Assembly (NCBI GenBank): GCA_903907925.1
Contig: CAIVQB010000148.1
Location: 1 to 39,735, forward strand
Reading direction: 5' to 3'
DNA from: an uncultured Verrucomicrobiota bacterium
GTDB lineage: Bacteria; Verrucomicrobiota; Verrucomicrobiia; Limisphaerales; UBA9464
Length of the DNA stretch: 39,735 nt
The notes below the pieces were generated by a model. The model saw only the letters and a list, made by a program, of their open reading frames with translations. It had not been told where the DNA came from and made no database searches. Shown in pieces: positions 2,162-26,280 of the stretch (position 1 is its first letter; each line of letters starts with the position of its first letter). The translations under genes and the position numbers were made by a program.

Positions 2162-3049
2162 ATTGCACCACGCTGTTCCGGGCGGCTTCGACGCTGGGAT
2201 ACTTGAGAAACCACTGCTCGCTGAGGCGCGGTTCGACCGGCACATCGGCGCGTTCGCTGAAGCCCACGTTGTTGGTGTAGGGCTCGGCTTTTTCCAACGC
2301 GCCGGCGCTTTCCAGCTATTCCATTGAACGCTTGCGGGCAACGAACCGATCGAGTCCGGCCAATTCGGCGCCCGCGTCGGAGGTCATCTTTCCGTCGGGC
2401 GTGAGAATATCGATCACCGGCAGCTTGTGGCGCAGGCCGATCTCGTAGTCCGCCTTGTCGTGCGCGGGGGTCACCTTCAGCACGCCGGTGCCGAAGTCGA
2501 ACGTCACGTAATCGTCCGCAATGATGGGGATCCGGCGCTGTTCCATCGGCAAATCGAGCGGCAACGCGCGATAGACGTGTTTGCCGATGAGATGTTGGTA
2601 GCGAGGATCCTTGGGATTCACGGCCACCGCGGTGTCAGCGGGGATGGTCTCCGGCCGGGTGGTCGCGATGGTCAAGAAGGTGCCGGGCAGTTCGGCCACT
2701 TCGACCCGGAAATGGTACATGAAGCCCTTCTGCTCCTTCATCACCACCTCTTCATCCGACAAGGCGGTGAGCGATGCGGGACACCAATTGACCATCCGCA
2801 TCCCGCGGTAGATCAGGCCTTTTTTGTAGAGATCGACGAACACCTTCTGGACGCACCGGGAATACTCCGGGTCCATGGTGAAGCGGGTACGGGTCCAGTC
2901 GCAGGACGCGCCGAGTGCGCGCAATTGCTTCAGGATGATGCCGCCGTACTTGTCCTTCCATTCCCAGATCCGGGCGACCAGGGCTTCGCGGCCGAGATCA
3001 TCGCGATGCTTGATCTCGCCGGCCTTCTTGAGCGTCTTTTCGACGACAT

Positions 3050-21089: not shown

Positions 21090-22664
21090 TCAGCCTTTCA
21101 GCAGTGCGAATTCCATCGAATCGACCAGGGCTTGCAGGGAGGCGGTGATGATATTTTCGCTCACGCCGACCGTGCCCCAGTCGCGCTTGCCGTCGGTGCT
21201 TTGGATCAGCACCCGGGTCTTGGCGCCGGTGCCGGCGATGCCGTCCAGGATCCGCACCTTGTAGTCGGTCAGCTTGATCTTGCGGAGGATCGGGAAGGAT
21301 TTCCCGAGGGCGGAACGGAGGGCGCCGTCGAGGGCGTTCACCGGGCCGTCGCCGTCGGCCACCGTGTGGTGAACAGCTTCACCGACCCGGACCTTGACCG
21401 TGGCTTCGCAGACCGAGCCCGACGTGTCGCCACGGGTGGAAACGTGATACGACTCTACGGTGAAGGCAGGTTGCTTGAGATCAGAACGACCCGTTGAAAG
21501 GACGCCGCGGATCAGCAAGGCGAGCGAGGCCTCGGCGGCTTCGTATTCGAACCCGAGGTTCTCCTGTTCCTTCACCCGGGCGGTGATGGCCTTGGTTTCC
21601 GGCATCTCCGCGGTGAGCTTGAAGCCCAGTTCCGCCGCCTTGACCAAAATGTTGGTGCGGCCCGACATGTCGCTGACCAGGACGCGGCGAAAATTCCCGA
21701 TCGCGGTGGGATCGATGTGTTCGTAGCTGCGGGCGACCCGTTCGATGGCGTGGACGTGGATGCCTCCCTTGTGGGCGAAGGCCGTCTGTCCAACCCACGG
21801 CTGGCGGGGGTCGTGACGGAAATTGGCGATCTCGTCGACGAATTCGGACAACTCCTTGAGCTTGGGCAGCGAGGCCGGGGGAACGCCGCGCCGCCCGAGC
21901 TTGAAGTGAACGGTGGGGATGACGCTGATCAGGTTGCAGTTGCCGGTGCGTTCACCGTAGCCGTTGATCGTGCCCTGGATGTGATCCGCACCGGCTTCGA
22001 GGCCGGCGATGCCGTTGGCCACGCCGAATCCGCAGTCGTTGTGGGTGTGGATGCCGATCCGGGCATTCAGTTTGCCGTGGGCGTGGGCGACGATCCGGGT
22101 GACCTCACTGGGCAACCGTCCGCCGTTGGTTTCGCAGAGGCAGATGACATCGGCACCGGCCTTTTCGGCAGCCTGCCAGGTGGCGAGGGCGTATTCCGGG
22201 GCGTCGAGAAATCCGTCGAAGCTGTGTTCCGCGTCGTAGATCACCGTCTTCCCGTGATCCTTCAGGTACCGGATGGTATCGGCGATCATGGCGAGGTTTT
22301 CGTCCGGCTTAACCCGCAGGACTTCAGTGACATGAAGGAGCCACGTCTTGCCGACGACGGTGACCACCGGGGTTTCCGCGTCGAGCAGCATGCGGATTTG
22401 CTCGTCGTTTTCGACGGCCACGCCTTTTTTGCGGGTGAAACCGAAGGAAGCGATGCGGGCGTTTTTCCACTTGCGACGGCGGGCCTGTTGGAAGAATTCC
22501 AGATCCTTGGGATTGGAGCCGGGCCAGCCGCCTTCGATGTAGTGAACGCCGAACTGGTCGAGTTTCTCCGCAATGCGCAGCTTGTCGGTCAGCGAAAAAT
22601 TAATGCCCTCACCCTGGGAACCGTCGCGCAGGGTGGTGTCGTAGATTTCGACTTGGGATTTCAT
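21090..22664 (-). CDS. cimA: Citramalate synthase
   Basis: A 524-residue enzyme of the isopropylmalate/citramalate synthase family. The HMGL-like catalytic barrel opens with YDTTLRDGSQGEGI (about residues 8-21) and carries the metal-binding HTHND motif in IGIHTHNDCGFGVANG. The C-terminal third is the LeuA-type allosteric dimerisation domain. The length, the QGEGI variant and the HYIEGGWPGSNPKD segment point to the long CimA type rather than LeuA or homocitrate synthase. It condenses pyruvate and acetyl-CoA to citramalate, the first step of a threonine-independent route to isoleucine. The ATG at 22664 has no Shine-Dalgarno; the bases before it are pyrimidine-rich. A terminator with a leader ORF lies just upstream. 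Confidence 0.88.
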   Translation of the reverse strand: MKSQVEIYDTTLRDGSQGEGINFSLTDKLRIAEKLDQFGVHYIEGGWPGSNPKDLEFFQQARRRKWKNARIASFGFTRKKGVAVENDEQIRMLLDAETPVVTVVGKTWLLHVTEVLRVKPDENLAMIADTIRYLKDHGKTVIYDAEHSFDGFLDAPEYALATWQAAEKAGADVICLCETNGGRLPSEVTRIVAHAHGKLNARIGIHTHNDCGFGVANGIAGLEAGADHIQGTINGYGERTGNCNLISVIPTVHFKLGRRGVPPASLPKLKELSEFVDEIANFRHDPRQPWVGQTAFAHKGGIHVHAIERVARSYEHIDPTAIGNFRRVLVSDMSGRTNILVKAAELGFKLTAEMPETKAITARVKEQENLGFEYEAAEASLALLIRGVLSTGRSDLKQPAFTVESYHVSTRGDTSGSVCEATVKVRVGEAVHHTVADGDGPVNALDGALRSALGKSFPILRKIKLTDYKVRILDGIAGTGAKTRVLIQSTDGKRDWGTVGVSENIITASLQALVDSMEFALLKG

Positions 22665-22684: not shown

Positions 22685-22719
22685 AAAAAAACCCCGTTCC
22701 GACGGGCGGAACGGGGTTT
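22685..22719 (-). terminator. Attenuator terminator in the cimA leader
   Basis: On the minus strand, AAACCCCGTTCCG pairs perfectly with CGGAACGGGGTTT (13 bp) around the loop CCCGT, followed by seven T. It lies 21 bases before the cimA ATG and 14 bases after the leader-peptide stop. No minus-strand gene lies upstream for it to serve as an ordinary end-of-gene terminator. Confidence 0.88.
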
Positions 22720-22733
22720 CGGTGGAAACTCGT

Positions 22734-22778
22734 TCAACGCCGCTGGAATGCGGTAATAATCATCCGAATCCGAATCAT
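22734..22778 (-). CDS. Isoleucine-rich leader peptide of cimA
   Basis: ATG ATT CGG ATT CGG ATG ATT ATT ACC GCA TTC CAG CGG CGT TGA gives MIRIRMIITAFQRR. Four of 14 codons are ATT for isoleucine, two of them adjacent, and a threonine codon follows. In-frame starts further upstream at 22787 (17 residues) and 22835 (33 residues) are possible. A weak GGGA lies about 8-9 bases before the 22778 ATG. Isoleucine is the end product of the pathway that CimA opens, so the codons fit a sensor function. The short frame could arise by chance; its position relative to the terminator is the main support. Confidence 0.65.
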   Translation of the reverse strand: MIRIRMIITAFQRR

Positions 22779-22840
22779 TCCGGGCATTCCCGAGCAATCA
22801 GTGGCTCGGAAGGAGATGGAATGAAGGGCGTTCATCACGT

Positions 22841-23002: not shown

Positions 23003-23030
23003 TTGACTTTTGACTCCCTCTACCTAGGCT
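23003..23030 (+). promoter_or_regulatory. Possible promoter of the FecR-like gene
   Basis: TTGACT at 23003-23008 and TAGGCT at 23025-23030, spacing 16. The TTGACT hexamer is repeated at 23010. The -10 match is poor (three of six). It lies 39 bases before the gene start. Confidence 0.35.
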
Positions 23031-23068
23031 GGTCTCGTCTGAAACCTAATTTTTCAAAAGGCTTTACC

Positions 23069-23782
23069 ATGAAGATGTTTGGCAGCTTTCCCCAGTGGGT
23101 CAGCGTCTGCGCTATTGCGGGCTTTTCATCGGTCGCCGGGCTGGCTGCGCCCCAGACCGGGAGTGCGAAGGTGACCGCGGTGACTGGCAATGTTTTGCTC
23201 GATACGGCTGCGGCCAAGGTCGGGGATATTGCTCAACCGAATTCGAGCATCACCACCGGCCCCGAGTCCAAGGCAAGCCTTTACCTCGGTGTCAATGGTC
23301 CTGATGTCAACGTGCTGGATAACAGCAAGTTGAAGCTCTCCGAGTTGACCTTTGATGATTCCGGTGCCGAGACCGTCATCAGCACCAAGCTGGGCCTGTC
23401 CGATGGTACCGTTGAAGGGTACGTCAAGAAGACCAGCAAGGATTCGACCTACCTCGTCACCACTCCGACCACCACGGCTGCGATCCGGGGTACAGTCTAC
23501 ACGATCAAGGCCAGCGGTGCTGTGCTGATCTGGGAAGGTTGCGCGGATGTCGGCTATCGTGATCCGGGTTCTTCCCGCGTCTCCAATTTCAACGTTTGCG
23601 CCAATCAGATGTTCGACCCGGGCGTCCCGGGCGTCGTCGACATTCCTGCTGGGACCCCGAAGCCGTCGCTTGGTTTGACAGGCCAGAACCAGCAGCCTCC
23701 GGTGGGACCGAAGTCCTTCGTTTCCCCGGTCAAGGGTCTGCCGGCTGCTTCCCCTGCACCGAACAACAATCCTGGCACCTGA
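23069..23782 (+). CDS. FecR-domain secreted protein
   Basis: 237 residues from the ATG at 23069, which has an AAAAGG element in front and begins a signal peptide (MKMFGSFPQWVSVCAIAGFS, cleavage near LAA-PQ). The mature part has the FecR-like beta domain: VTAVTGNVLLDTAAAKVGD, then ITTGPESKASLYLG, NSKLKLSEL, and TPTTTAAIRGTVYTI. The C-terminal 50 residues are Pro/Gly/Asn-rich and probably disordered. FecR domains in E. coli relay an outer-membrane signal, but stand-alone secreted forms in this phylum have no known role. A strong terminator follows, then a CHASE2 cyclase gene, which suggests a shared signalling task in the periplasm. Confidence 0.8.
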   Translation: MKMFGSFPQWVSVCAIAGFSSVAGLAAPQTGSAKVTAVTGNVLLDTAAAKVGDIAQPNSSITTGPESKASLYLGVNGPDVNVLDNSKLKLSELTFDDSGAETVISTKLGLSDGTVEGYVKKTSKDSTYLVTTPTTTAAIRGTVYTIKASGAVLIWEGCADVGYRDPGSSRVSNFNVCANQMFDPGVPGVVDIPAGTPKPSLGLTGQNQQPPVGPKSFVSPVKGLPAASPAPNNNPGT

Positions 23783-23868: not shown

Positions 23869-26280
23869 GTGGATGGTTCCGCACCAAGCTTTCGAAGGCA
23901 CTCCCCGCTGTGGGTGGGGCTGGCTGTGGCGCTGATCGGAACCCTGGTGATGGCGGTCTCCGGTTTTCTAGAGCGCCAATACTCACTGATCCAGGGCTCG
24001 GAGGGTCTTTCCCAGACGCCGATCGCCGGTGCCGATTGGGTCCAATGGCTCCACAAACATGATCTTCCGCTGGGTCTTGAACTGACCCTCTTCGACTGGC
24101 GGGTCCGTCAGGCGGCCGGATCGAGTGGATCTCTCGCACCGGAACTGGCGCTGGTGGCGGCGCAGGAAAGCACAGTGCAGAGCTTGCGCCTGCGCTATCC
24201 ATTGGGAGAATCGGTCGGTCTTCTGTTCCCGCGCCATATTTACGGCCGGTTGCTTCGGGAACTGACCGCAGAAGGTGCCGCGGCGGTCGCGTTCGACATT
24301 CTCCTTCCCGACGATCGTCCGGATCATCCGCTGGTAAAATTACCCGGGACCAACGCGCCGATATCGTCGGACGAATTCTTTGCGCGCGAGGTGGCGGCCA
24401 ATGGACAAGTCATTCTGGCATCCCTTCCCGACCTCCCGCCGGCACCGCGGTTTCGCAGTGTTGCCCATGCCTTGGGGGAGGTGAATTCACCCCGTGACAA
24501 GGATGGCTCTGCCCGTCGTGTCCGGGCTTTTGTCGACTGCCAGTTTTATGGAACTCAGTTGATCAACTTCGCCACCCGGCGCGGTCTGATTGTGGAGAAC
24601 GGCCCGACCCACTCGGCGGAGAAGGGGTCTTCGAACACGATTCGCTTGCGTGAACCTTCCAACGAGAGCGAGTGGATCCTTCAGATCGCCACCAATGGAA
24701 CCGTGTCCCTGCCGCTGGGAGCCGCGCGGATCACGGTTCCCGCTTACGAGCGAAAACGGGTCTGGCACATGGGAATCGTTCTGGCGGCGATGCGGCTGGG
24801 TCTGGATCTGGATCGCGCCGAAATCGGACCCGACCGGATTCGGCTCAGCGGCACCAACGGCGTGGTACGAATCATCCCGGTGGATGCCGCCCATACGCTG
24901 ATGGTGGATTGGTCGGTGAACACCGAAGAGATTCCCAAGGATCGAAAAGTTTGGATGGAGAAACTGTTGAAGGCGGACCTGGACCGCCAGGCGGGCAAGG
25001 TGCCCGAGGATTCCAACCGGTTTCATGACAAACTGGTCATCATTGGATCGCTGGTGAAGGGCAGCAACCTCGCCGATCTCGGTCCGACGCCCCTGGCACC
25101 GAGCGACTTCCTGGTGAGCACCTACTTCAATGTCGCCAATTCGGTCCTGCAAAACCGGTTCGTGTGGCGTCTGCCCATACCCGCCGAGCTGGCGTTGCAC
25201 CTGGCCTTGTCCCTGATGGCGGCGTGGGTGACTTGGCGATTGGGGACGTTGATGGCCGAGACGGCGATGGTCGGACTCGCCGCGGGTTATGTGGTGCTGG
25301 CGAGTTGGGCTTATCTGGAACACCGGTTGTGGTTGCCGCTGGCGTACCCACTGCTGACCGGACTCGGCGTGAATCACGCGGTCATGCTGACCTGGCGGCT
25401 GATGTTCGAGCAGCGCGAACGTCGGCGGGTGCGATCGGTGTTCTCGAAGATTGTTTCGCCGGATGTCGTTCGGGAATTGTTGGGAGCCGAGCGGCTCGGT
25501 CTGGACGGATCGCGACGGGAAATGACGGTCTTTTTTGCCGACGTCCGGGGGTTCACCGAGATGACCGATGCCGTTCAGGCCGCCGCCGAGCAACAGGCGA
25601 CCGAATCCCGACTTTCACCGGTGGATGCCGAAGCACTGTTCGAGAAGCGGGCCGGCGAAGTTCTGGAGACCGTCAATCTCTACCTCGCCACCATCGCCGA
25701 CGTCGTCAAGCACCAGAATGGAACTCTCGACAAGTACATCGGCGATTGTGTCATGGCCTTCTGGGGGGCACCAGGTGCCGATGACCGTCATGCGGTCAAT
25801 TGTGTGGTTGCTGCGATTGACGCCCAGCAGGCGATCGATCAGTTGAATATCCGGCGGGCGGCGGTCAACCGTCAGCGCGAGCAGGAGGCCGTCGCAACGC
25901 CCGGCTCTGGAGCGGCTCCCCAGCTTCTGCCGCTGCTGGCGTTGGGCACCGGCATCAATACCGGGACCATGACCGTGGGCTTGATGGGCAGCGAAGCTCA
26001 CATCCTGAACTATACGGTGTTCGGACGTGAGGTGAATCTGGCTTCCCGCCTGGAGGGAGTTTCAGGGCGCAGCCGGATTGTGATCGGCGGGACGACATTT
26101 GCCCATCTGCAGCGATTGGCTCCCGCGCTCGCGGCGTTTTGCGTGCCGCTCGAGCCGGTGTCGGTCAAGGGATTCCGCCAACTCGTGACCGCCTATGAGG
26201 TCGACTGGCGAAAAGCCGGTGCGGCGGTTTCGCGTCTTCGACAGAGGCGGTCCGATTCCGATCCCGATTCGGCGGCTTAG
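23869..26280 (+). CDS. CHASE2-domain adenylate/guanylate cyclase
   Basis: 803 residues. The GTG at 23869 is the first in-frame start after the stop codon at 23815 and keeps membrane helix 1 (PLWVGLAVALIGTLVMAV). A CHASE2 extracytoplasmic sensor domain follows (about residues 45-410, e.g. LTLFDWRVRQ and AVAFDILLPDDRPDH), then three membrane helices (about 435-510), then a class III catalytic domain. Catalytic residues are present: metal ligands Asp558 (VFFADVRGFTEM) and Asp626 (LDKYIGDCVM), Lys622 typical of ATP use, and Asn723/Arg727 in NLASRLE. Expected product: cAMP, made in response to a periplasmic signal. The metal Asp pair is 68 residues apart because of an Ala/Glu-rich insert (about 565-592). 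Confidence 0.9.
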   Translation: MDGSAPSFRRHSPLWVGLAVALIGTLVMAVSGFLERQYSLIQGSEGLSQTPIAGADWVQWLHKHDLPLGLELTLFDWRVRQAAGSSGSLAPELALVAAQESTVQSLRLRYPLGESVGLLFPRHIYGRLLRELTAEGAAAVAFDILLPDDRPDHPLVKLPGTNAPISSDEFFAREVAANGQVILASLPDLPPAPRFRSVAHALGEVNSPRDKDGSARRVRAFVDCQFYGTQLINFATRRGLIVENGPTHSAEKGSSNTIRLREPSNESEWILQIATNGTVSLPLGAARITVPAYERKRVWHMGIVLAAMRLGLDLDRAEIGPDRIRLSGTNGVVRIIPVDAAHTLMVDWSVNTEEIPKDRKVWMEKLLKADLDRQAGKVPEDSNRFHDKLVIIGSLVKGSNLADLGPTPLAPSDFLVSTYFNVANSVLQNRFVWRLPIPAELALHLALSLMAAWVTWRLGTLMAETAMVGLAAGYVVLASWAYLEHRLWLPLAYPLLTGLGVNHAVMLTWRLMFEQRERRRVRSVFSKIVSPDVVRELLGAERLGLDGSRREMTVFFADVRGFTEMTDAVQAAAEQQATESRLSPVDAEALFEKRAGEVLETVNLYLATIADVVKHQNGTLDKYIGDCVMAFWGAPGADDRHAVNCVVAAIDAQQAIDQLNIRRAAVNRQREQEAVATPGSGAAPQLLPLLALGTGINTGTMTVGLMGSEAHILNYTVFGREVNLASRLEGVSGRSRIVIGGTTFAHLQRLAPALAAFCVPLEPVSVKGFRQLVTAYEVDWRKAGAAVSRLRQRRSDSDPDSAA

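Follow-up and report, generated by a model that had tools for sequence, protein, structure and literature searches.

A predicted isoleucine-codon transcription attenuator preceding the citramalate synthase gene cimA in Verrucomicrobiota

The ilvGMEDA and leuABCD operons of E. coli are preceded by leader-peptide attenuators of the type found in ilv, leu, his and trp operons. Like these systems, the locus described here has a short ORF rich in codons for the end product, a predicted antiterminator and a terminator that exclude each other, and a terminator that immediately precedes the first structural gene. It differs from the classical ilv, leu, his and trp attenuators in that the controlled gene would encode citramalate synthase, strand 2 of the predicted switch spans the leader's own stop codon, a general 1:2 protector hairpin was not seen, and the host belongs to the Verrucomicrobiota. 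The theory of leader-peptide (ribosome-mediated) attenuators is treated in PMC1183508. The attenuator of Corynebacterium ilvBNC, or ilvB-II motif, is described in PMC10272879 and PMC11857589 as a leader, quoted in PMC11857589 as MTIIRLVVVTARRLP, with a terminator and an overlapping antiterminator. A branched-chain leader and a terminator overlapped by an antiterminator are common to ilvBNC and the present locus, whereas the Corynebacterium leader has mixed Ile, Val and Leu codons at ilvB and a proposed anti-antiterminator hairpin, compared with Ile codons at cimA here. The actinobacterial ilvB leaders and the LEU element resemble the present locus in that short ORFs with runs of branched-chain codons precede ilvB or leuA; unlike it, the LEU element is described, in PMC1262725, as having a pseudoknot or alternative hairpin that pairs with the leuA Shine-Dalgarno box. 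The Leptospira ilvB motif and the ilvB-OMG motif are likewise uORF-type candidate attenuators in other lineages, but the gene differs from cimA and, according to PMC10272879, one of the two is confined to Leptospira. According to PMC2965389 (2010), the leader-peptide systems demonstrated until then came, with the exception of ermC, from Proteobacteria and Actinobacteria alone, to which that study added Firmicutes. The ErmB leader, which belongs to a translational system induced by a drug, is mentioned in PMC11683593 with regard to predicted resistance genes of Akkermansia. The main texts of PMC1262725, PMC10272879, PMC8632094, PMC11109978, PMC11857589 and PMC2965389 make no mention of cimA, and the string "Verrucomicrob" is absent from the main text of PMC10272879, PMC8632094, PMC11109978 and PMC2965389. 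Neither a cimA attenuator nor a Verrucomicrobiota amino-acid attenuator was found in the accessible portions of the open-licence PMC literature, which holds few subscription papers or preprints. The author of an earlier note on this DNA knew of no such attenuator described for citramalate synthase in the phylum.

The window, the whole stretch of 39,735 nucleotides that was analysed, contains cimA on the minus strand together with the upstream features collected in Table 1.

Table 1. Positions in the window of cimA and of the predicted regulatory features preceding it.
Feature	Position	Strand	Basis
cimA, (R)-citramalate synthase, the putatively regulated gene	21090..22664	minus	TIGR00977, 668.5 bits (cut-off 450)
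Leader ORF MIRIRMIITAFQRR and stop, four ATT (Ile) codons	22734..22778	minus	direct reading; Ile enrichment in the stop frame
Strand 2 of the predicted antiterminator, GGCG-TT-GAACG, which includes the leader stop TGA	22731..22741	minus	invariance; covariation; cognate pairing
Predicted antiterminator strand 3, CGTTCCGCC, within the terminator 5' arm and loop	22705..22713	minus	stalled-ribosome fold
Intrinsic terminator, 13-bp stem, 5-nt loop and seven-T tract	22685..22719	minus	fold; alignment

Direct reading of the DNA confirmed the frame reported in the earlier note, with two of its Ile codons adjacent, and the 14 nt that separate its stop from a perfect hairpin. The frame reads ATG ATT CGG ATT CGG ATG ATT ATT ACC GCA TTC CAG CGG CGT TGA and has 14 codons, or 17 if the in-frame ATG at 22787, three codons upstream, is used. 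The hairpin is composed of AAACCCCGTTCCG, the loop CCCGT and CGGAACGGGGTTT at 22719-22689, and the T-tract at 22691-22685 ends 20 nt before the cimA ATG at 22664. The pairing of strand 2 with strand 3 over nine bases, also claimed in that note, was found as described. The 134-nt leader region folds with a predicted energy of -51.1 kcal/mol compared with -38.8 kcal/mol (sd 3.87) for shuffled sequences, none of 200 being as low. The ORF upstream of the leader (within 23003-23782, plus strand) is divergent from cimA; thus, no minus-strand gene precedes the hairpin there that it could terminate, and the hairpin lies inside the cimA leader. Since little room is left between the hairpin with its T-run and the cimA ATG, a start of the cimA transcript downstream of the terminator appears unlikely. 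The distance from hairpin to ATG was 15-65 nt in 22 of the 23 relatives measured, the remaining one, L008, having no ATG. The divergent neighbour of cimA (23072-23782, plus strand) encodes a protein that weakly resembles surface proteins of Leptospira, with matches to the Lsa33/LipL45 models that stay below cut-off, and beyond it lies an ORF of 803 amino acids (23869-26280, plus strand) which we take to resemble a membrane-anchored adenylate/guanylate cyclase.

The distribution of the element was followed in 79 loci of CimA relatives taken from genome contigs and in the window's own family of 50 genomes, 43 of which have cimA. The hairpin was present in all 42 family genomes in which the start of cimA is assembled, namely 40 represented by fetched upstream regions, the window, and G032, where the element and the cimA start sit on a separate contig; in the 43rd genome, G049, just the 3' portion of cimA is present. 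The leader was in view in 40 of these 42, the contigs of G024 and G026 ending before it, and 38 of the 40 fetched regions, all of which have the hairpin, were long enough to include the leader. A covariance model (R1) gave 46 matches of at least 55 bits in 320 genomes of the order, 40 of them in the window's family (f1), five in f13 and one in f33. All were directly before cimA except the f33 match (G081), which ends at a contig end, and two more f1 matches, those in G024 and G026, were truncated by contig ends. Weaker matches, of 30-45 bits, also occurred in the order. A survey of the class with 384 genomes drawn evenly, partly overlapping the order set, yielded 13 matches at E values up to 1e-7, of which twelve were in f1 or f13. 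Model searches over 40 genomes were run with stricter filters, by which weak matches are lost. In a quick tree of 68 CimA proteins, which also holds 36 Verrucomicrobiota-type non-carriers and eight outgroup rows on long branches, the 24 carriers formed one clade with an SH-aLRT value of 81, below the tree's starred level; L003 was labelled a carrier in this tree on its hairpin alone.

Two candidates for further copies were rejected. The 13th match of the class survey, in a genome of another order (G618, 45.6 bits), is a terminator that follows a ribosomal-protein gene (by eye), with no cimA near. The next match to the model in the window's own genome (35 bits, locus L152 on contig C143), considered as a second copy, is a 3' terminator after a ribosomal-protein gene, again as judged by eye; the weaker matches in this genome, L154, L156 and L157, were checked for cimA only.

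Other arrangements were seen before cimA outside the carrier clade. A promoter-like motif was recognized by eye just before the ATG of at least five non-carriers, TTGCCA-N17-GATAAT in L019, L022 and L033 and TTGCCA-N17-GATATT in L025 and L032; since the motif lies close to the ATG, there is no room for a leader in these loci. At L055 (about 2793-2930), whose cimA is sister to the carrier clade and encodes a protein 72% identical to that of the window, both the Ile leader, MSKKIIITAIIITSPNGGGLARV and stop, and the terminator-like hairpin differ from those of the window element; the locus is labelled Taylorbacteria, an assignment that looks doubtful. Short Ile leaders reading MINFMIII, MINFIIII or MINFIIIT before the stop were observed upstream of cimA in Candidatus Actinomarina (L066-L070 and L072-L074, about 2900-3000), ending just before two hairpins, the second of which leads into a run of nine T; a script recovered seven of these eight loci, and L067 was read by eye. 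Compared by eye, the Actinomarina leader is unrelated in sequence to the window element and is possibly convergent.

Codons were counted in 42 distinct leaders to which 45 loci had been collapsed, omitting L084 and L097, where contig ends leave only the hairpin in view. The leader stop was chosen by a strict pattern, a looser one taking an earlier TGA in L104, L105, L106, L115 and L118. In the frame of the stop, Ile occurred at 3.79 per 20 codons compared with 0.40 and 0.31 in the other two frames and with 1.41±0.15 in dinucleotide shuffles of the leaders (maximum of 500 shuffles, 1.88). Of the 839 residues encoded by the last 20 codons, 159 were Ile, more than any other amino acid, with at least two in 38 leaders and a single one in the other four (L092, L100, L115 and L117), so that none had zero. 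The codons used were ATT (102) and ATC (57), with no ATA, and Ile peaked at the eighth codon ahead of the stop, where 27 of the 42 leaders have it. Apart from Ile the peptides differ widely, and the segment spanning the stop remains complementary to the 5' arm of the terminator. Judged from these sequences, what the leader encodes is isoleucine and no fixed peptide. An in-frame ATG that precedes the modal Ile and is no more than 30 codons from the stop was present in 25 of the 42 leaders, while nine had only GTG or TTG as a start and eight had no ATG, GTG or TTG within 30 codons. No clear Shine-Dalgarno sequence was found before the leader starts of the 42 leaders, no promoter-like match was found upstream of the window leader, and no consistent promoter candidate was found upstream of the leaders of relatives. 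The title of a paper from 2000 reportedly claims leader formation without a ribosome binding site in the context of Corynebacterium ilvBNC, so that the missing Shine-Dalgarno sequence would have a precedent.

Strand 2, with the consensus CGnTGAACG, spans the stop, and its partner is CGTTCCGCn, located in the 5' arm and loop of the terminator; the TGA and the CG following it are invariant in an alignment of 38 sequences (A1). The strand 2:3 helix was counted in a register with a one-base mismatch (register A), leaving out of the count a register with a two-base bulge that is used by some members including the window. The cells of this helix were paired in 89.7% of cases, compared with 83.2% in shuffled alignments and 32-49% in slid registers. 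Double-change cells numbered 28 against 12.4 in shuffles, and the covariation score was 0.225 against 0.131; none of 500 shuffles reached the observed value in any of these three measures, and in the other two of the five, double-change pairs (3) and pair types (12), there was no excess over shuffles. The compensatory change was carried by the outer pairs, columns 10-52 being C-G in 20 sequences, U-A in seven and A-U in three. The stem of the terminator, the 3:4 pairing, was paired in 98.4% of cells in the 38 sequences, with double-sided changes at two pairs. The attenuator reading of the earlier note thus held among relatives, which keep both Ile codons and alternative 2:3 pairing along with the hairpin, with the 2:3 pairing covarying and the 3:4 pairing intact. 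An alignment-free comparison of strand 2:3 energies in 18 representatives gave -17.2 kcal/mol for cognate and -14.1 kcal/mol for re-paired strands, or -11.4 and -8.7 kcal/mol without the invariant core, with 0 of 20,000 permutations reaching the cognate value in either case; this test, like the covariation count, corrects only partly for the relatedness of the sequences. Their own strand 3 ranked first in three of the 18 representatives and among the top three in ten.

The switch was also modelled by folding in the presence of a ribosome, whose footprint was set to seven bases beyond the A site. With the ribosome placed at the Ile codon nearest to position -8, the 2:3 helix formed in 40 of the 42 leaders, the exceptions being L112 and L117. 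With the ribosome placed at the stop, a mean of -2.5 kcal/mol was left for the 2:3 pairing and the terminator (-27.7 kcal/mol) was free to form. When no ribosome was included, the 2:3 helix was predicted in 32 of the 42 leaders, indicating that untranslated RNA would tend to read through. The earlier note had further proposed that two copies of GGAATG pair instead with CATTCC. The motifs are present in the window (22790-22785 and 22781-22776 with 22750-22745), but the competing pairing is not general and would at most be local to it: with no ribosome in the model, upstream sequence captured three or more of the five core bases of strand 2 in just six of the 42 leaders, so that a 1:2 protector hairpin was not found as a general feature. 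In the window itself, the model without a ribosome still formed the 2:3 helix despite this option. A 1:2 protector or pause hairpin may therefore be optional and not defining, the modelled switch needing none. Overall, the locus combines an ORF with cognate codons, an intrinsic terminator, a covarying antiterminator and, in the fold model, the stall geometry of an attenuator.

Threonine dehydratase was searched for with two families in the window's own genome, which is 96% complete, and none was found at cut-off. PF00585, found in five of 14 control genomes, had no match, and the best match to TIGR01127 scored 67 bits against a cut-off of 378.75 that was exceeded in five of the 14 controls. 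Since neither family reached cut-off, citramalate formed by CimA is likely the source of 2-oxobutyrate and the route to isoleucine, which would make isoleucine the right signal for cimA. Leaders followed by a terminator also precede ilvB (L159, MQPCTNLVVVLVAGGDAAAGTCRA and stop) and leuA (L002, MIRSVLLRLLCSALLIGGAVAGID and stop) of the same genome; the latter was found when L002, a remote homologue, turned out to be leuA-like. Twenty relatives were fetched for each gene, and the leader stop was picked by the count of branched-chain codons, a choice that favours enrichment in the following values. Val averaged 4.43 per 20 codons in the ilvB leaders, the two other frames giving 2.00 and 0.57, and 21 of 21 had at least three Val (that of L177 read by eye and then scored); Ile was at 0.48 per 20 codons, and Leu showed no enrichment at ilvB, with 1.33 in the leader frame and 2.10 and 1.86 in the others. 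The leuA leaders had 5.41 Leu per 20 codons against 2.00 and 1.29 out of frame, with at least three Leu in all 17 scored of 21 loci, L181, L190 and L195 being left out for lack of a terminator and L198 for lack of a leader. Most of the antiterminator strands predicted for ilvB and leuA lie towards the 3' end of the leader. Cognate strand pairing was as low in one of 5,000 permutations for leuA and was weak for ilvB (59 of 5,000). Inspection of trpE in this genome (L200) by eye showed neither an obvious leader nor an obvious terminator. The composition of the cimA, ilvB and leuA leaders suggests a codon-specific attenuation set that divides the branched-chain pathway. It is likely, in our estimate, that this lineage of Verrucomicrobiota runs the whole branched-chain pathway by three codon-matched attenuators, with Ile at cimA, Leu at leuA and Val at ilvB and with the antiterminator strand of each towards the 3' end of the leader ORF, and that the isoleucine branch is sensed separately; on this three-attenuator reading, a dedicated sensor for the branch in this citramalate-using organism, in which IlvA is seemingly missing, would follow from an entry enzyme that is encoded separately.

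An ordinary terminator, belonging to an upstream or an antisense transcript and preceded by an Ile-rich frame through chance, would resemble the hairpin, and GC-rich hairpins with a T-run do follow ribosomal-protein genes in the same genome (L152, 35 bits) and likewise in G618. Against it, the upstream ORF is divergent, Ile is enriched in frame with the stop over 42 distinct leaders, and the strand spanning that stop covaries with the terminator arm, which leaves such a coincidence very improbable. A further proposal is that the leader acts by translation or by general ribosome stalling, through a stall peptide or the speed of translation, and not by Ile-specific termination. Streptomyces ilvB leaders are attenuator-like, yet codon changes in them were without effect, as reported in PMC1262725. 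Nascent-chain stalling is made unlikely by peptides that differ widely apart from Ile; the strong intrinsic terminator in 40 of 40 fetched family upstream regions and the other cognate codons at the sister genes, Val at ilvB and Leu at leuA, also speak against this proposal, which we consider improbable.

The region could also be a T-box or riboswitch with uncharged tRNA or a metabolite as its ligand, as T-boxes and riboswitches serve amino-acid genes of other phyla. Against Rfam, the window gave no match at gathering score, and no known Rfam leader or ilvB or leuA motif did so in the window or at the cimA, ilvB and leuA loci. Searches of those loci gave three sub-threshold matches, the best with 25 bits where 43 were needed and none of them a T-box, and no T-box was among the Rfam matches to L143 at E values up to 1. 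Since the conserved part, comprising stop, linker and terminator, is also shorter than 80 nt, an explanation of this kind is extremely unlikely.

The window element is very probably a ribosome-mediated transcription attenuator that ties transcription of cimA to charged isoleucyl-tRNA. From the known mechanism we infer the transcription start, translation of the leader, efficiency of termination and response to isoleucine as follows. RNA polymerase would start upstream of the leader, followed by a ribosome on the short ORF. With plentiful isoleucine, the ribosome would get to the TGA in strand 2 and cover it, blocking the antiterminator, so that the 13-bp terminator could form and transcription would stop before cimA. 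When isoleucine is short, the ribosome would stall on Ile some eight codons ahead of the stop and leave strand 2 free to pair with the emerging strand 3; the 5' arm of the terminator would then be occupied and the polymerase would read into cimA.

The element is apparently an instance of a known mechanism at a new gene, that for citramalate synthase, and in a new phylum, and leader-peptide attenuation would be extended to both citramalate synthase and the Verrucomicrobiota. The question is raised of how translation of the leader keeps up with transcription where clear Shine-Dalgarno sites are missing. If the three-attenuator reading is true, the candidate Ile leaders before cimA of Candidatus Actinomarina, with their unrelated terminator, would represent convergent evolution. 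The cimA, leuA and ilvB leaders would then form a natural trio of sensors differing in codon identity, in organisms known here mostly from metagenome assemblies, the regulation of which may be predictable from sequence.
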